From: Hyphomicrobium denitrificans 1NES1 | Lineage (GTDB): Bacteria; Pseudomonadota; Alphaproteobacteria; Rhizobiales; Hyphomicrobiaceae | NCBI RefSeq assembly: GCF_000230975.2 | Contig: NC_021172.1 | Span: forward strand, 1,364,001-1,428,000 | DNA: 64,000 bases | Direction: 5' to 3' | Program-made: the position numbers and the translations under genes | The notes under the pieces: generated by a model | What the model saw: only the letters and a program-made list of their open reading frames with translations | What the model was told of the DNA's origin: nothing | Databases searched by the model: none | Shown here: positions 46,846 through 56,560 of the stretch, piece after piece | Position numbering within the stretch: position 1 is the first letter of the stretch | Layout of the letters: each line of letters starts with the position of its first letter

Positions 46846-48774
46846 TCAGGCGACCTGATTCGATTCATCGCGCGATAGGGCGACACGCTCCGATGCTTGA
46901 TGCTGAAGCGTCGCAACGAGATCCCTCACGTCGGCCGGATTATACGGTTTTGTCAGATGCGGATATTCCCGCAACAGCGGCGGCAGAAAGATCAAATCAT
47001 TGTAGCCCGTAGTAAACGCGAAGGGAACGCGTCGCCGATCGAGGATTTCGGCAACCGGAGCACTGTTGTCCGCCCCGAGATTGATGTCGATCAGGGCGAT
47101 GTCGAACTCGGAATCGGTCGCAGCGCACAATGCTTCCGAGAGCTGCGCGAATGGTCCGACGACCACGTGGCCATCATCCTCGAGATCGAGCTTTAGCTGC
47201 AAGGCTATCAGGGCTTCGTCCTCGATGAGAAGAATTTTGCAACCTTTGCAAGCAGGCACGCTTGCAACCGATTGAGCCATTCGAGTCTTCGAAACGATTG
47301 CGACATGACGTGTGCCGACCATTTGCGTGCGGGTCGAAAGGTCGCCCTCGAAGCTGAATTCGAAGCCCTCGGCCGCAAGTTCCATCTTCGCTTGTCCGCC
47401 GCACTCGGATGCGGCGCTGCGGATGACGGTCAGGCCGAACCCATTGCGGATCGGTTTCGTGCAGGGTGGTCCGCCGCGCTCCTTCCACGCGAATTTAATC
47501 TTCTCGCCGTCGGCCGAGACGACACGTGACCAGCCTACGAATACCGTACCGCCGGCTGCCGACAGTGCGCCATGTTTCACAGCGTTGGTTACGAGTTCAT
47601 GCAGAACGAGCGCCATCGATTGTGCGAACTTTGACGTGAGGCGCACGCGGTCGCCTTCGATCACGATGTCATTGTCGGTGCGAGATCGGAAGGGTTCCAG
47701 CGCACCTGCCACCAGCTCGTGCAGGTCAACTCCCGTCCAACTGCTCTGACGCAGCAGATCGTGCGCCGCCGACATCGCGTGAATGCGCCCGTCGAGGGCA
47801 GACGCAAAAGCATCGATCGAAGTGGCGTTGGAACTCGAAAGGCGCGCGATTGCGGCGACGTTGGCGAGAATGTTCTTTACGCGGTGATCAAGCTCGGCCA
47901 TCAGAAGCTGCTGATGGCTATCGGCCGATTTCCGTTCGGTGATATCGAGCAGTGTTCCGATGACGCGCGCGGACCCGCCGCTGCTGGTCTGGAAGGCGCG
48001 CGCGCGGGCGAGAACCCAGGCGACGCCGCGCATGCCGTTGACGCGGAATTCAAGCTCAGAAGTCGTGTCCGCAAAATTTGCTGCTCTGAAATAGCTGCGC
48101 ACGGCGTCGCGATCATCGGCGTGGACGAGGTCGATGAAGGCATCGAAGCGCTGATGCTCGGGCACCGCAACGTGAAGAACTTCGGCGATATTCGGCGACC
48201 ATTGCAGATGCTGCTCGGACTGGTCGTATTCGAAGGTTCCCAGTCGTGCCGCCTCGCTGGCGAGGCGTAACCGCTCCTCGCTCTGTTGCAGCATGGCGTG
48301 GGAATGTTCGAGTTGTTCGGTGCGCTGCCTGACGCGCTCCTCAAGCTCGGCGTTAAGAGCGTCGAGCTGACGGCTTTTTCGGTACAACTCGACGAAGATT
48401 TGCACCTTCGCTTTGAGAATTTCGGGAACGACGGGCACCGGCACGTAATCGACGGCGCCGGTACGATAGCCTTTCAAAAGATCGTCGGTATCGAGGCGTA
48501 CCGCCGAGATGAAGATAACCGCAGTCTTTTCATGGCGCGGATGATTGTGGATCATTTCGGCAAGCTCGAACCCGTCGAGGTCCGGCATGCAAACGTCCAT
48601 CAGAATGACCGCGATCTCGGTTTTCAGCAGCGCAGCAAAAGCCTCTTCGGCCGTCGTCGCTTTAATAAGGCTTGCGTTCAAGCCATCCAGAATTGCCTCG
48701 TAGGCGAGAAGTTTTCCGGGCTGGTCGTCGACAAGCAGGATGTTGACTGTTTCGTCGGAAATCTCTGAAGCCAC
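46846..48774 (-). CDS. Hybrid response regulator/HWE histidine kinase
   Basis: A 642-residue soluble protein. An N-terminal receiver (NILLVDDQPG, phospho-Asp in ILMDVCMPDLDG, about residue 60) is followed by a coiled coil (about 130-180) and a PAS domain (about 180-300). The HWE/HisKA_2 domain has MAELDHRVKNILANV, and the ATPase domain has LVLHELVTNAVKHGALS. A C-terminal receiver (ILLIEDEALIALQLKLDLED and IALIDINLG) completes it. It begins 12 bases after the HAMP-repeat kinase and is probably cotranscribed. Candidate partners are the HAMP kinase and PhyR. Confidence 0.9.
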   Translation of the reverse strand: MASEISDETVNILLVDDQPGKLLAYEAILDGLNASLIKATTAEEAFAALLKTEIAVILMDVCMPDLDGFELAEMIHNHPRHEKTAVIFISAVRLDTDDLLKGYRTGAVDYVPVPVVPEILKAKVQIFVELYRKSRQLDALNAELEERVRQRTEQLEHSHAMLQQSEERLRLASEAARLGTFEYDQSEQHLQWSPNIAEVLHVAVPEHQRFDAFIDLVHADDRDAVRSYFRAANFADTTSELEFRVNGMRGVAWVLARARAFQTSSGGSARVIGTLLDITERKSADSHQQLLMAELDHRVKNILANVAAIARLSSSNATSIDAFASALDGRIHAMSAAHDLLRQSSWTGVDLHELVAGALEPFRSRTDNDIVIEGDRVRLTSKFAQSMALVLHELVTNAVKHGALSAAGGTVFVGWSRVVSADGEKIKFAWKERGGPPCTKPIRNGFGLTVIRSAASECGGQAKMELAAEGFEFSFEGDLSTRTQMVGTRHVAIVSKTRMAQSVASVPACKGCKILLIEDEALIALQLKLDLEDDGHVVVGPFAQLSEALCAATDSEFDIALIDINLGADNSAPVAEILDRRRVPFAFTTGYNDLIFLPPLLREYPHLTKPYNPADVRDLVATLQHQASERVALSRDESNQVA

Positions 48775-48786
48775 GCCTGTCCCCCT

Positions 48787-51700
48787 TCACCGATGTAGCC
48801 ACATGCGCAACGCCGACAGAAGCTGCTCCGTATCGACGGGCTTTGCGAGATAGTCCGATGCCCCGGCTTCCAGACATTTCTCGCGATCGCCCTTCATCGC
48901 CTTGGCGGTGAGTGCGATAATCGGCAACCGCTGATGCTTTTCGCTGCCGCGGATGCGCTGCATCGTCTGATAGCCGTCCATTTCCGGCATCATGATATCC
49001 ATCAGCACGATAGATACGTCTGTCGAATTCAGCGTTTCTATGGCTTCGCGCCCCGTCGTCGCCGTCAGGACGTTCATTCCGCGGCGTTCGAGCAGGCTGC
49101 TCAGTGCAAATATGTTGCGGGCATCGTCGTCGACGAGCAGAACCTTACGGCCGACTAGGTAATCGTCGGTACCGTGCAATCGGGATAAAAGCTCTCGTTT
49201 TTCGGGAGGCAGCTCTGCGATGACGCGGTGCAGGAACAGGGCCGTCTCATCAAGCAGCCGTTCGGGAGACTCGACGCCCTTGACGACGACGGTGCGTGCC
49301 AATTGACGGATCTTGTGATCTTCCTCGTTGGAGAGTTCGCGGCCCGTGAATACCACGACCGGAATGTCGCGCATGGCGGGCGATCCGCACATCTGCTCGA
49401 GGATTTCGAAGCCCGACATGTCAGGCAACTTCAAATCAAGAACGACACAATCAATCGGATTTTCCCGCAGAGCCTTTAGCGCGTCGGCGCCATCGGCGGC
49501 GGTCAGGATCTCGACATCGTCGTTTTTCAACAGCTCGGCGACGCTCATGCGCTCGGTATGATCATCGTCGACGATGAGGAGCCGTTTCCGCGGCGACTTC
49601 GCGAATTCCGCGATGCGCCTCAAGGCGGATTTGAGTTCCTCGGGCTGCAGCGGCTTCGTCAGATATGAAAATGCACCTCTGGCGAGGCCGTGGTGGCGAT
49701 CGTCGTCCAACGTCACGACCTGCACCGGAATATGGCGCGTCAGCGGATTGTGCTTGAGCTGACTCAAAACGGACCAGCCGAGAACGTCGGGTAAATGGAT
49801 GTCGAGCGAAATCGCTGTCGGATTGTAGTCCGTCGCGACCGATAGCGCATCGGCGCCGCGGTGGCAGACGATGCATTTGAAGCCCGTTTCGCGGGCTGCC
49901 TCGATGAGAATTTTTGCATACCGCGGATCATCCTCGACGATGAGAAGAACCTGATCGCCGGCGACGATGCTGTCGCGATCATCGTTAAGCGGTTCGGGCA
50001 ATGCGGGCTGTACCGGGGCACGCGCCACAGAATTCTGATCGGCTCTTGATCGCGTCTCGACGGCGGGCGGCGCATAGCGAAGTGGAATGTAGAGCGTGAA
50101 CGTGCTGCCCTTGCCCGGCTCGCTGCGCAATTGAATTTCGCCGCCCAGCAGATGCGCCAGCTCGCGGCTGATCGCGAGGCCGAGGCCGGTGCCGCCGTAC
50201 TTGCGGCTCGTACTCGCGTCCGCCTGCTGGAACGCTTCGAAGATCAGTTTCTGCTTGTCCGACGGGATGCCGATGCCAGAGTCGTCGACTTCGAAAGCGA
50301 CGACCATCGGCGCGGCGGCTAGGATCGGGTGATCCTCCGGACCCCATTTGGCAGTCGCAGGCTTGACGGAAAAACGCACGTAGCCCTGGCGGGTGAACTT
50401 GAAGGCATTCGATAGCAGGTTTTTCAATACCTGCTGCAGGCGTTTCGAGTCGGTATAGAGGGTCCGTCCCAGATCCGCGTCGAAGCTCATCCCGAAATCG
50501 AGGTCCCGGCGCTCCGCCTCGTGACGGAAGGGACGTGCTATCGCTTCAAGGAGACCGTTGAACGTGATCTCCTCGGCATCGACCGAGACCGTTCCGGATT
50601 CGATCTTCGAGAGATCGAGAATGTCGCTGATCAGGTTCAGAAGATCCGTGCCGGCGCCGTGAATGGTGCGCGCGAACTCGACCTGTCTTTCCGAAAGATT
50701 GCCGTCGGGATTGTCGCTGAGCTGCTGGCCGAGAATGAGGATGCTGTTGAGCGGTGTCCGAAGCTCGTGCGACATGTTCGCGAGGAATTCGGATTTGTAG
50801 CGCGATGTCAGCGCAAGCTCTGCGGCTTTTTCCTCGACGGCACGGCGAGCCTGATCGATTTCCTCGTTCTTGCGTTCGACTTCGACGTTGCGCTCGGCAA
50901 GCTGCTGGGCTTTCTGTGCCAGTTCTTCGTTGGTCTTTTGCAGCGCCTTCTGTTGCTCCTGAAGCTCGGCGGCCAGCTCCTGCGATTGCGTCAGGAGTTC
51001 CTCGGTTTGCATCGTCGCCTCGATGCTGTTCAGGACGATGCCGATGCCCATCGTCAACTGTTCGAGGAATGTCAGGTGTGCCGGCTCGAAATCGTGCAGC
51101 GAGCTGAGAGAGATGACGGCCTTGATCTGGTCCTCGAACGTGATCGGCAGGACGATGACACTGCGAGGAACAGCCTTGAATACGACGGCATCGATCGGAA
51201 CTGCGGCTTCCGGGATGTTGTTCAGCAGACGGCGTTGTTTTTCCAGTGCGCATTGTCCGATAAGGCCCGATCCGAGTTCGAGCCGGTCGGGATAGCCAGC
51301 CCCCATGTCGTCGGCGTACCTGGCGAGCAGCTTCAACTGATTTTCGGTGCTGGCATCGAACTGATAGATAACGCCCTGGTGCGCGTTGACGAGCGGGACA
51401 AGCTCCGACAAGAGTTTCTTGCCGACAGTTACGAGATCGCGCTGCCCTTGCAGCATGCTGGTGAAACGCGCCAAGTTCGTTTTCAGCCAATCCTGCTCGG
51501 TGTTGCGCTCCGTCGTCAGGCGGAGGTTGCCGATCATTGTGTTGATGTAATCTTTCAGCTCAGCCACTTCGCCGCGCGCTTCGACCTGAACCGAGCGGGT
51601 GAGATCGCCTTTCGTGACGGCCGTGGTGACCTCGGCGATGGCGCGCACTTGGTTGGTGAGATTGTCGGCGAGAAGGTTGACGTTGCCGGTCAGGTCTTTC

Positions 51701-54483
51701 CACGTACCGGCGGCGCCGGGCACGTTCGCCTGTCCGCCGAGGCGGCCTTCGACGCCAACCTCGCGCGCGACGGTCGTCACCTGATCGGCGAAAATCGCGA
51801 GCGTGTCGGTCATGGCATTGATCGTCTCGGCGAGGGCTGCGACTTCGCCTTTCGATTTGACGGTGAGCTTGGGCTTCAAATCGCCCTCGGCGACCGCGGT
51901 CACGACTTTGACGATGCCGCGAACCTGCTCCGTCAGGTTGGCCGCCATCACGTTGACGGTGTCTGTCAAGTCCTTCCACGTGCCACCCGCGCCAGGCACG
52001 GTCGCCTGTCCGCCGAGGCGGCCCTCGGTTCCGACCTCGCGGGCGACGCGCGTCACTTCGGATGCAAAGCCGTTGAGCTGGTCGACCATCGTGTTGATGG
52101 TGTTCTTCAGCTCCAGGATTTCGCCTTTGACGTCGACGGTGATCTTGCGCGAAAGGTCGCCGCGGGCGACGGCGGTCGTCACCTCCGCGATGTTGCGGAC
52201 CTGTGTCGTAAGATTTGCGGCGAGGAGGTTGACGTTGTCGGTCAGGTCTTTCCAGGTGCCGCCGACGCCGGGCACGACGGCCTGACCGCCGAGGCGACCC
52301 TCGGTACCGACCTCGCGGGCGACGCGCGTCACTTCCGCCGCGAACGAGCGAAGTTGCTCGACCATCGTGTTCAACGTTTCTTTCAGCAGCAGAATCTCGC
52401 CGCGCACGTCGACGGTGATCTTCTTCGAAAGGTCGCCCGACGCGATGGCGGTCGCGACCTCGGCGATGTTGCGCACCTGAGCCGTCAGGTTGCCGGCCAT
52501 GAAGTTGACGTTGTCGGTCAGGTCTTTCCAGGTTCCCGCGACACCCGAGACCTGCGCCTGTCCGCCGAGCTTGCCTTCTGTTCCGACCTCGCGCGCAACG
52601 CGCGTCACTTCCGACGCGAAGGCGTTCAACTGGTCGACCATCGTGTTGATGGTGTTCTTCAGCTCCAGGATTTCGCCTTTGACGTCGACGGTGATCTTGC
52701 GCGAGAGGTCGCCGCGGGCAACGGCCGTCGTCACTTCGGCGATGTTGCGGACTTGGGCCGTCAGGTTCGACGCCATCGAGTTGACGTTGTCGGTCAAGTC
52801 CTTCCACGTTCCCGCGACGCCCGGAACCTGGGCTTGGCCGCCAAGCTTGCCGTCGGTGCCGACTTCACGCGCAACGCGCGTCACTTCCCCGGCGAAGGCG
52901 TTCAACTGATCGACCATCGTATTGATGGTTTCCTTCAGCTCGAGAACCTCGCCGCGTACATCGACGTCGATTTTCTTCGAAAGGTCGCCCGAAGCGATGG
53001 CAGTCGAAACGTCTGCGATGTTGCGCACCTGCGTCGTCAGGTTCGACGCCATCGAGTTGACGCTGTCGGTCAGGTCCTTCCAGGTTCCGGCAACGCCGCG
53101 CACGTCGGCCTGACCGCCAAGCTTGCCTTCGGTACCGACCTCGCGCGCAACGCGCGTCACTTCGGATGCAAAGCCGTTGAGCTGGTCGACCATCGTGTTG
53201 ATGGTTTCCTTGAGCTGCAAGATTTCGCCCGAGACGTTGACCGTGATCTTTTTCGACAGGTCGCCGCGGGCGATGGCAGTCGCAACGTCTGCGATGTTGC
53301 GCACCTGCGCCGTCAGGTTGCCGGCCATTGAGTTGACGTTGTCGGTCAAGTCTTTCCAGGTTCCGGCGACGCCGGGGACGGTTGCCTGACCGCCGAGGCG
53401 GCCCTCGGTACCGACCTCGCGGGCGACGCGCGTCACTTCGGATGCAAAGCCGTTGAGCTGGTCGACCATCGTGTTGATGGTGTTCTTCAGCTCCAGGATT
53501 TCGCCTTTGACGTCGACGGTGATCTTGCGCGAAAGGTCGCCGCGGGCGACGGCGGTCGTCACCTCCGCGATGTTGCGGACCTGTGTCGTAAGATTTGCGG
53601 CGAGGAGGTTGACGTTGTCGGTCAGGTCTTTCCAGGTGCCGCCGACGCCGGGCACGACGGCCTGACCGCCGAGGCGACCCTCGGTACCGACCTCGCGGGC
53701 GACGCGCGTCACTTCCGCCGCGAACGAGCGAAGTTGCTCGACCATCGTGTTGATGGCTTCTTTCAATTGCAGGATCTCGCCGCGCACGTCGACGGTAATC
53801 TTCTTCGAAAGGTCGCCGTTGGCGACGGCGATCGTGACCTCGGCGATGTTGCGCACCTGCGCCGTCAGGTTCGACGCCATCGAGTTCACGCTGTCGGTCA
53901 GGTCTTTCCAGACGCCAGTCACTTCGCGGATTTGCGCCTGTCCGCCGAGCTTGCCATCCGTTCCGACCTCGCGCGCGACGCGCGTCACTTCGGACGTAAA
54001 GATCGAGAGCTGCTTGATCATTGTGTTAACGATCGTCGCCGAGCGCAGGAACTCTCCTTTGAGAGGGCGGCCATCGACCTCCAGTCGCATAGGCTGCAGC
54101 AGGTCGCCTTGTGCGACGGCGGCGATCGTGCGGGTCACCTCGGCAGTCGGCCGTAGCAGGTCGTCGATCAGCGAATTGACGGATTCCTCCATTTCGCCCC
54201 ACGCCCCGTGCGCGAGCCCGAGCTTGACGCGCTGGTTCGTCAGCCCTTCCTTACCGACGACTTGACCAACCCGGTGAAGCTGGCCGGCCATGCGCTGGTT
54301 GGTCGAGACGATATCGTTAAAGACGTCGGCGATCTTGCCCGGTAATCCGTCCCAGTCACCGCGCAATCGTACCGTAAAGTCGCCCTCCCGCACGGCCTGA
54401 AGGGCCTGGAGCATCTCGACAAGCACCATGTTGGAACCGCCGACCAAGCGCTCGGCTCCGACCGTGCTGATCTGCTCCGACAT
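48787..54483 (-). CDS. Giant hybrid histidine kinase with nine tandem HAMP units
   Basis: An 1898-residue protein without membrane helices, so a cytoplasmic sensor. Residues about 150-975 are nine 92-residue units, each with a [15 protein letters not shown] segment followed by a [15 protein letters not shown] HAMP helix, plus a diverged N-terminal copy. A GAF-like domain (about 995-1155) and a coiled coil follow. HisKA has the phospho-His in [12 protein letters not shown] (about residue 1239), then the ATPase domain. Three receivers end the protein (about 1500-1625, 1638-1755 and 1778-1898). The layout resembles fungal group III/Nik1 osmosensing kinases. An EcfG-type promoter lies 38 bases upstream. 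Confidence 0.93.
52031..52371 (-). repeat. 341-bp perfect direct repeat, copy A
   Basis: Identical base for base to 53411-53751, an offset of 1380 bases, equal to exactly five 276-base units. The flanking units are clearly different, which points to a recent gene-conversion or duplication event. Confidence 0.9.
53411..53751 (-). repeat. 341-bp perfect direct repeat, copy B
   Basis: Second copy of the sequence at 52031-52371. The boundaries are set by single mismatches at 53410 (A versus T) and 53752 (G versus C). Confidence 0.9.
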
Positions 54484-54737: not shown

Positions 54738-55292
54738 TCAACGGCTTGAACTCTTGGCAGGCGGCGCATTTTCTGGATGACGTTGCTCCGCGCCTTCCTT
54801 TGTGTGCTGTTGTCCCGATGTCTCTTCGACCAGGCGGCTTCTGGCGCGGTTGACCCGGCTTTTCATGGTTCCGACTGCGCAGCCGCAGACGCGCGCCGCG
54901 TCTTCGTACGAAAAGCCTTCCGCTGTTATCAGGAGCAGCGCTTCGCGGTGGTCGGGGGATAGGCGCATGAGCGCTCGCCGCATGTCGTCGAATTCAAGCT
55001 GCGTCAGCTGCGTCGCCGGCACGCTGGCGTTCATCGCGGCGTGGTCCTGGTCCAGTTCCTCGCGCTGGGATTTGCGGTAATGGGTGAAATAGGTATTGCG
55101 CAAGATCGTGAAGAGCCACGCCTTGAGATTTGAGTCCGGGACGAAGGAATCCTTGTGCGCCCATGCCTTTAGCAGCGTTTCCTGAACGAGGTCGTTTGAA
55201 AGCTGCCCCTCACCGCAGAGAGAGTGTGCGAAGGCTCGAAGATTTGGGATAGCCGCGATCAAGGCATCCCCGAAGCTTGGAGTTTCGGTCAC
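54738..55292 (-). CDS. ecfG: ECF sigma factor of the general stress response (EcfG)
   Basis: A 184-residue group IV sigma factor. Region 2 reads NDLVQETLLKAWAHKDSFVP then NLKAWLFTILRNTYFTHYRK; region 4 reads MRRALMRLSPDHREALLLIT and EGFSYEDAARVCGCAVGTMK. It recognises GGAAC-CGTT promoters. The GTG start overlaps the nepR stop (GTGA) with GGAGGA upstream, so it is coupled to its anti-sigma factor. Gene order and motifs place it with the alphaproteobacterial EcfG group (ECF15). Confidence 0.93.
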   Translation of the reverse strand: MTETPSFGDALIAAIPNLRAFAHSLCGEGQLSNDLVQETLLKAWAHKDSFVPDSNLKAWLFTILRNTYFTHYRKSQREELDQDHAAMNASVPATQLTQLEFDDMRRALMRLSPDHREALLLITAEGFSYEDAARVCGCAVGTMKSRVNRARSRLVEETSGQQHTKEGAEQRHPENAPPAKSSSR

Positions 55293-55531
55293 TCCGACTC
55301 CTCCTTGGACTCGAGCTGGCGGACGAGCTTTAGGAGCTCGTCGGGAACCGGCTCGCGGACCATCGAGGCATACATGGTGCGCATGCGTTCTCCGATGAGC
55401 TGCGCCGCAATTCCGGGCAAACGGGTGACGCCCTTCTGAGGCGCCTCTGGTTGGGGCTGTGCCTCGGGTTCAGAAATCGCTTCTTCTTTGTTTCGCGTGT
55501 GCTCGTCCGGCGCGTCCAAGCGCTGTTGCAT
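55289..55531 (-). CDS. nepR: Anti-sigma factor NepR
   Basis: An 80-residue protein holding EcfG inactive until phospho-PhyR displaces it. The NepR core is seen as AQLIGERMRTMYASMVREPV and PDELLKLVRQL, the two amphipathic helices that wrap the sigma factor. The N-terminal half is disordered and acidic. It sits first in the minus-strand nepR-ecfG unit and is divergent from phyR, the standard arrangement. Confidence 0.92.
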   Translation of the reverse strand: MQQRLDAPDEHTRNKEEAISEPEAQPQPEAPQKGVTRLPGIAAQLIGERMRTMYASMVREPVPDELLKLVRQLESKEESE

Positions 55532-55673: not shown

Positions 55674-55756
55674 GAAGTGCCGGTGCAGCTTGACTGTTAG
55701 AATGGACTGGCTATCCGTCCCGTCCCTCGACGTCGGCCCGGGAGGTGCAGTGTGTC

Positions 55757-56560
55757 ATGTCGATTGCCCAGACGATCCGTCCCCATCTGCCGTATCTGCG
55801 GCGTTTCGCCCGGACGCTGACGGGAGCCCAGGAAACGGGAGATGCTTATGTCGCCACGTTGCTCGAAGGTCTGGTTTCGACACCCTCGGATTTTCCGACG
55901 GATATGCCGGCGCGCGTAGCGCTCTACCACCTGTTTCTAAGGGTTTGGAACTCCGTGCGGCTGTCGTCGTCCGACGGCGAAGATGTGCAAGGATCGCTGG
56001 CGACGGCGCAACGCCGGATCAATTCAATCAGCTCGTTGCCACGACAGGCGTTTCTTCTCATTGCTGTCGAAGGATTTACCGCGGCGGAGGCTGCAACCAT
56101 TCTTGAAGTCGGCGAAAAGGATATCGAGAGCTTGCTCGACGTTGCCGGCCAAGAAATTGCGCATCAGGTCGCGACCAATGTCCTCATCATCGAGGACGAG
56201 CTTCTGATTGCGATGGACTTGGAAACAATCGTTACAAGTCTTGGGCACACGGTTCAGGAGGTGGCGACCACCAAGACCGAAGCCCTCGCCGCCGTTAAGC
56301 GTCAGAAACCCGGACTCATTCTTGCCGACGTGAAGCTGGCGGACGGCAGCAGCGGTCTCGACGCGGTGAAAGAGATCGTGGCGGAAGGAGAAGTTCCTAT
56401 CATCTTCATTACGGCGTATCCGGAAAAAGTGCTGACGGGCGAGCGACCCGAGCCGACGTTCCTGATCTCGAAGCCGTTCCAGCGTGAGACCGTCATGGCG
56501 ATTATCAGCCAGGCGCTGTTCTTCGATACAAGGGCCCACCTGCGGACGGCGGCTGCCTAA
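55757..56560 (+). CDS. phyR: General stress response regulator PhyR
   Basis: About 267 residues. The N-terminal half mimics an ECF sigma factor (MSIAQTIRPHLPYLRRFART; SLPRQAFLLIAVEGFTAAEA), and the C-terminal half is a receiver (VLIIEDELLIAMDLETIV, phospho-Asp in LILADVKLADGSSG, FLISKPFQRETV with the conserved Lys). On phosphorylation the sigma-like half binds NepR and frees EcfG. ATG 55757 follows GGAGGT by 10 bases; an earlier GTG would lie inside that ribosome-binding site. It converges with rarA. Confidence 0.95.
   Translation: MSIAQTIRPHLPYLRRFARTLTGAQETGDAYVATLLEGLVSTPSDFPTDMPARVALYHLFLRVWNSVRLSSSDGEDVQGSLATAQRRINSISSLPRQAFLLIAVEGFTAAEAATILEVGEKDIESLLDVAGQEIAHQVATNVLIIEDELLIAMDLETIVTSLGHTVQEVATTKTEALAAVKRQKPGLILADVKLADGSSGLDAVKEIVAEGEVPIIFITAYPEKVLTGERPEPTFLISKPFQRETVMAIISQALFFDTRAHLRTAAA

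Follow-up and report, generated by a model that had tools for sequence, protein, structure and literature searches.

Units 3 and 8 of a Hyphomicrobium poly-HAMP kinase array share an exact 341-bp repeat that is probably kept alike by gene conversion

The gene of a poly-HAMP hybrid histidine kinase in Hyphomicrobium denitrificans 1NES1 carries, within one array of repeat units, two stretches of 341 bp that are identical and lie exactly five units apart. How did two distant units come to share their DNA, and can the array lose or gain the units between them? The original prediction offered recent gene conversion or a five-unit block duplication as the origin and expected recombination to delete or add five units in frame. 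Our answer, to which we give a probability of roughly 0.85, is that units 3 and 8 are of the same unit type, that their likeness in protein is kept by selection, and that their likeness in DNA comes from repeated gene conversion without net change in array length.

The window, by which we mean the whole 64,000-nucleotide stretch analyzed, contains the kinase gene and the neighboring genes listed in Table 1. Pfam matches in the kinase comprised nine HAMP and ten HAMP_2 stretches, GAF_2, HisKA, HATPase_c, and three Response_reg stretches. The predicted kinase core consists of HisKA (amino acids 1230 to 1297) and HATPase_c (amino acids 1345 to 1469), followed by the three Response_reg stretches. 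All ten HAMP_2 matches in the genome fell inside this gene, and none was found outside it. A profile of the 92-residue unit counted ten units. We number the divergent first unit as 1; when counted from the first unit with the VTRVAREVG motif, the unit 3/unit 8 pair corresponds to U2-U7. Each 276-bp unit is a repeat of the ~92-residue type described in Candida Nik1 as a HAMP domain pair (PMC3848655). A histidine kinase-Gcn4p fusion structure (9trk) matched kinase residues 23 to 299 (E value, 6.7e-112). By a simple measure, no transmembrane stretch was evident in the kinase (highest 19-residue Kyte-Doolittle mean, 1.59, at amino acid 1094, outside the N-terminal part). Group III hybrid kinases are described as having ~92-residue N-terminal HAMP repeats and no transmembrane regions, followed by a histidine kinase and receivers (PMC7643160, PMC3848655), and we call this protein group III-like on the basis of its ~90-residue N-terminal HAMP repeats, its HisKA, HATPase, and receiver domains, and its lack of transmembrane regions by simple hydropathy. 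Antisense to the kinase there is an open frame of 936 residues (50521 to 53331), which most likely arises as a side effect of repetitive, GC-rich coding DNA.

Table 1. Features of the kinase locus, in window positions
Feature	Position	Strand	Remarks
REC-PAS-HWE kinase-REC protein	46846-48774		12 bases downstream of the poly-HAMP kinase
Group III-like hybrid histidine kinase	48787-54483	-	1898 aa; ten 92-aa HAMP units, GAF, HisKA, HATPase_c, three receiver domains
Poly-HAMP array, units 1-10	51505-54273	-	aa ~71-993; unit 1 divergent, others in 92-residue steps
Copy B of 341-bp repeat	52031-52371	-	whole unit 8 (52057-52332) and edges of units 7 and 9
Units 4-7, between copies	52333-53436	-	crossover between copies would lose 1,380 bp in frame, leaving units 1, 2, 3/8, 9, 10
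Copy A of 341-bp repeat	53411-53751	-	whole unit 3 (53437-53712) and edges of units 2 and 4
ECF sigma factor	54738-55292	-	beside kinase
NepR-like ORF	55289-55531	-	named by appearance; no family assigned
PhyR	55745-56560	+	beside kinase

Copies A and B are identical over 341 bp, with zero mismatches, at an offset of 1380 bp (5 x 276). The perfect repeat was thus correctly recognized at the outset, and it cannot be extended by a single base at either end. At the same offset, the flanks contain 9 mismatches in the first 60 bases to the left and 12 in the first 60 to the right. In gene coordinates, the copies occupy bases 733 to 1073 and 2113 to 2453, and in the protein they run from amino acid 245 to part of 358 and from amino acid 705 to part of 818. 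The remaining unit pairs (nine units compared) are 64% to 86% alike in nucleotides and 46% to 77% alike at third positions, which agrees with the earlier observation that neighboring units differ at many third positions. When synonymous codons were shuffled within the array in 3,000 trials, the longest in-register run had a mean of 29.6 bp and reached 59 bp at most, versus 341 bp observed; because of this, the identity cannot be ascribed to chance or to protein constraint.

We compared this repeat with those in other poly-HAMP arrays. After exclusion of 7 of 101 array loci that were shorter than five units or contained N, 94 arrays remained (one array being counted twice), among which 341 bp was the second-longest exact internal repeat. 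Exact internal repeats of at least 100 bp were present in 9 of the 94, and 74 beat the maximum of their own 20 shuffles. The longest exact run lay at an offset of 1 or 2 units in 61 arrays and at an offset of 5 in 10; within the genus, only 5 of 14 arrays had their longest run at offset 5. The array of Aerophototrophica crusticola (L062), a scaffold-level record, contains a 563-bp exact repeat with its copies two units apart, exceeding 341 bp.

A search of 22 genomes of the genus gave a match at an E value of 1e-200 or better in 17. The match in G004 was another kinase (43% identical), pieces of the true gene being present in that genome, and in G012 and G016 the kinase gene was in pieces. It was intact in 14 genomes (L001 to L014), and all 14 genes contain ten units. 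Homologues found in the protein search under species or strain names included those of Hyphomicrobium methylovorum, H. facile, and Hyphomicrobium sp. ghe19.

Had units 3 and 8 simply been diverging independently since before the species separated, their distance within a genome should equal that between genomes. This was not the case. In 13 genomes (L014 was excluded since a one-residue insertion shifts its register), the third-position identity of units 3 and 8 was 0.770 within genomes and 0.651 across genomes, with orthologous units at 0.653/0.654. The observed excess of 0.119 compares with 0.012 expected from shared codon usage, has a permutation p value of 0.0005 (the floor of 2,000 permutations), and is the largest among 36 unit pairs; the two last units, taken as a pair, showed none (-0.006). 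It remained at 0.087 without L001 (this genome) and L007. Two genomes, L012 and L013, had no excess (0.844 and 0.808 within; 0.848 to 0.856 and 0.814 to 0.845 across genomes). A positive excess with an uncorrected p value of <0.05 was seen in 24 of the 36 pairs, units 3 and 8 included and the others smaller, and part of the signal is therefore not special to units 3 and 8. Some of these pairs involve one of the last two units (for example, third-position identities of 0.495 versus 0.464) and exceed the codon-usage prediction. Low-level conversion thus seems to be general across the array and strongest at units 3 and 8. Altogether, within-genome identity higher than that of orthologues, an unchanged copy number in 14 of 14 genes, and an excess above codon usage are the features by which we recognize concerted evolution here.

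A tree of the tract built from both copies in 15 genomes paired the copies by genome in 5 (L001, L002, L007, L011, and L015), with only 2 of its 27 inner branches strongly supported. In L007, exact runs of 203 and 98 bp occur at the same place and offset, the first run starting at the same residue. The copies differ at 2 bases of the homologous tract in L007 and at 16 to 67 bases in the other 11 genomes examined. In a permutation test of run length that covered every offset, 43 of 104 tests reached the floor. Short runs recurring at one position across several genomes accounted for many of these; such a test cannot separate short conversions from local constraint, and we do not use it as main evidence.

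The latest event in this genome appears to have been recent. None of the 113 third positions in the tract differs between the copies, giving an upper bound of 0.027 substitutions per site, and the array distance to G008, the nearest sampled relative, is 0.443. With a simple correction and an assumed clock, the last conversion would date, as an upper bound, to roughly the final 6% of the distance to that relative. The donor of this event cannot be named, the two copies of L002 being equally near (88.3% and 87.4%).

The paired slots can also be followed into longer arrays. In L016 and L114, which belong to the same family and have twelve units, the pair comprises units 3 and 10, seven apart, with two extra units in between. 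Unit-level alignment placed the extra units between the pair in L016 (units 6 and 7), L114 (6 and 7), L031 (4 and 5), L032 (5 and 7), and L053 (6 and 7); in L099, L112, and L116 they were placed at 9 and 10, one inserted residue in these arrays having moved unit 10 off register. The same kind of shift explains why the third-from-last slot scored 0.28 in L014, L099, L112, and L116, for which gapped alignment gives 0.92. By gapped comparison with the repeat unit of the window, 10 of the 11 twelve-unit family arrays (L099 and L112 being one array) had values of 0.97 to 0.99 at slot 3 and 0.91 to 1.00 at the third-from-last slot. The other, L120, scored 0.79 at slot 3 and contains one step of irregular length, 100 residues. 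L016 and L106 likewise represent a single array. In 6 of the 11, the third-from-last unit was only 0.91 to 0.92 like the repeat unit, with slot 8 about as near, and the shorter family arrays L017, L020, and L111 lacked the pair pattern (slot 3, 0.82 to 0.89; third-from-last, 0.82 to 0.91).

Seven Bradyrhizobium arrays, two Rhizobium leguminosarum arrays, and one Nitrospirillum array have a third-from-last slot that is 0.96 to 0.98 like the window repeat unit and a slot 3 that is only 0.84 to 0.86 like it; exceptions outside the family are L039, L055, L075, L076, and L083, with third-from-last values of 0.86 to 0.90. The L114 pair shows 99% amino acid identity but 46% third-position identity, and protein likeness can therefore be held by selection without recent conversion. 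In the within/between test, no excess above 0.055 was obtained in seven Bradyrhizobium genomes, where 2 of 66 pairs exceeded 0.03; excesses in four cyanobacterial genomes reached 0.181, with 34 of 78 pairs exceeding 0.03 and p values near 0.04 in the rows listed. On these small sets, conversion in poly-HAMP arrays probably extends beyond units 3 and 8. In the 13-unit cyanobacterial arrays L047, L054, L056, and L059 (four genomes), the mean excess was 0.05 to 0.06 at a spacing of one to three units and ~0 at ten or more. A parity rule for unit number (7, 9, or 11 in the first motif count) was dropped, as the 86 complete arrays, including two duplicates of others, span 7 to 15 units, both odd and even.

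Several observations favor conversion at units 3 and 8: the copies are identical, such likeness recurs in other species, some longer relatives have a different offset, and the unit number is constant in intact genus genes. Of the two origins first proposed, gene conversion is therefore supported, as the latest of several events that have homogenized these units in other species too, and five-unit duplication is not. Repeated unequal exchange could leave a similar mark. Mechanistically, the event would be a RecA-dependent non-crossover conversion within the array, and slot 3 may have acquired its unit type in the Hyphomicrobiaceae line as a copy of the third-from-last slot. Array length and the unit type at set slots would matter for signaling, and because of this the crossover products, five-unit arrays, would usually be removed by selection.

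The alternative that survives best sees conversion as part of a standing polymorphism in length, in which natural crossovers delete the units between the pair and leave some strains with five-unit kinases, and longer arrays regrow. We consider it possible but doubtful. It bears on the anticipated in-frame change of five units, which was not seen in any of the 14 intact genus genes, all holding ten units, but for which database proteins offer some support. A protein search listed 120 matches of at least 7,999 scored, and 36 complete proteins among the matches listed have a third unit of the repeat type. Among these matches, arrays of seven units or fewer occur in 8 of the 36 versus 1 of 44 other complete proteins (Fisher p = 0.009, the rows not being independent). 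The two protein searches together gave 237 proteins, 191 of them judged complete, and the short ones were the same nine. Six of the 36 complete proteins among the matches listed (P0125, P0126, P0127, P0130, P0131, and P0153), which fall into four lineages when their C-terminal parts are compared, have arrays made up of units 1, 2, 3/8, 9, and 10, the product expected from recombination between units 3 and 8. P0127, P0129, P0130, and P0131, with 5, 6, 5, and 5 units, are 99.4% to 99.8% alike over their last 900 residues, and P0133, 98.4% to 98.6% like them in that region, has at least eight full units though its start is cut off. A Hyphomicrobium protein from a metagenome-assembled genome, P0016, has units 1 to 8, then a second unit 2 and 3/8, and then 9 and 10. 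The arrangement suggests that two units from the front of the array were copied and inserted, and the extra block before unit 9 would also fit a changing array length.

Against a standing polymorphism, the short forms come only from entries with jgi, ena, or ncbi and jgi in the source column, none tied to a named isolate. We take them to be from metagenome assemblies, which the listing itself does not state. Real deletion and the assembly collapse of a repeat longer than the assembly word predict the same short protein. An extension of the polymorphism view, which we hold to be improbable and less likely than the polymorphism itself, would make the matched pair a built-in recombination switch that turns ten or twelve units into the five-unit form, with conversion keeping the pair switchable and populations carrying both long and short forms. 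The five-unit form would retain the complete front (units 1 and 2) and the complete back (the last two units) of the array.

Assembly could also have affected the window itself, the copies being identical only through the assembly or polishing of a repetitive gene, and a check for collapse or expansion had been proposed. Repeats of this kind do break assemblies: in the G016 draft, one contig ends and another begins inside this repeat unit, the ends overlapping by 23 bases, and in gene orientation a G012 contig starts inside unit 8 and a G004 contig ends 44 bases before the tract. However, the present genome is a single contig, its unit number matches those of the 13 other intact genus genes, the concerted signal persists when this genome and L007 are left out, and L007 has nearly the same match. 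An artifact is thus very unlikely as the cause of the identity, while collapse could equally yield the five-unit proteins.

A recent five-unit block duplication giving rise to both copies has even less in its favor than an artifact. It fits the spacing of precisely five units and a fair likeness between units 2 and 7 (85% of nucleotides). However, the identity ends after 341 of 1,380 bp (~1.2 units), mismatches begin immediately in the flanks, the likeness of unit pairs 4-9 and 5-10 is only 70% and 64%, the other 13 intact genus genes also have ten units, and the pair lies seven units apart in L016 and L114. Least credible is that selection on the DNA or RNA itself, rather than recombination, keeps the nucleotides identical, for although no unit is more conserved in protein than unit 3 (0.992 between genomes), the copies differ at 16 to 67 bases in 11 of the 12 other genomes examined, and orthologues differ at ~35% of third positions, so that no fixed DNA sequence is required.

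The genes next to the kinase look like a general stress response locus. The order of the ECF sigma factor, NepR-like, and PhyR genes is kept in G008, G003, and G019; the three were not seen in the regions extracted from G025, G006, and G057. A relative of the REC-PAS-HWE kinase-REC protein adjoins the poly-HAMP kinase in all six relatives examined (in G057, the match covers only 160 residues), which suggests that the two proteins share a pathway.

Concerted evolution by gene conversion is already known (PMC6053082), as is the poly-HAMP kinase family with its thousands of homologues. A literature search of titles and abstracts found no report of gene conversion within HAMP arrays. Homogenization is strongest between two distant slots while length is fixed in the intact genus genes, and selection on length and on slot identity can therefore be separated. 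In draft assemblies, poly-HAMP kinase lengths may be wrong exactly at this repeat. In tuf and other prokaryotic paralogues, long-lasting concerted evolution has been described and attributed mainly to gene conversion (PMC6053082), and, as here, copies within a genome are closer than orthologues. Unlike tuf, where whole genes are involved, the present case concerns two non-adjacent units inside one gene, with other units more weakly homogenized.

The chemoreceptor Aer2 likewise has concatenated HAMP units, for which signal passage by alternating conformers has been proposed (PMC3570549); unlike the window array, it is a three-unit HAMP structure, and the passages of PMC3570549 consulted describe no repeat homogenization. 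The poly-HAMP hybrid plan of the window kinase is shared by fungal Nik1, Myxococcus AskA and AskB, and Sorangium Amb07. AskA and AskB are named as ambruticin sensor kinases in Myxococcus, and AskA is reported to be essential for development (PMC7643160). In fungi, deleting four of the five repeats of DhNik1p is reported to have given a constitutively active kinase (PMC3848655), and the five-unit forms, if real, would be natural deletion variants of this sensor type. The window kinase differs from CaNik1p, which has five repeats, in its ten units, and it has a GAF domain and three receivers and adjoins an ECF sigma factor and PhyR.
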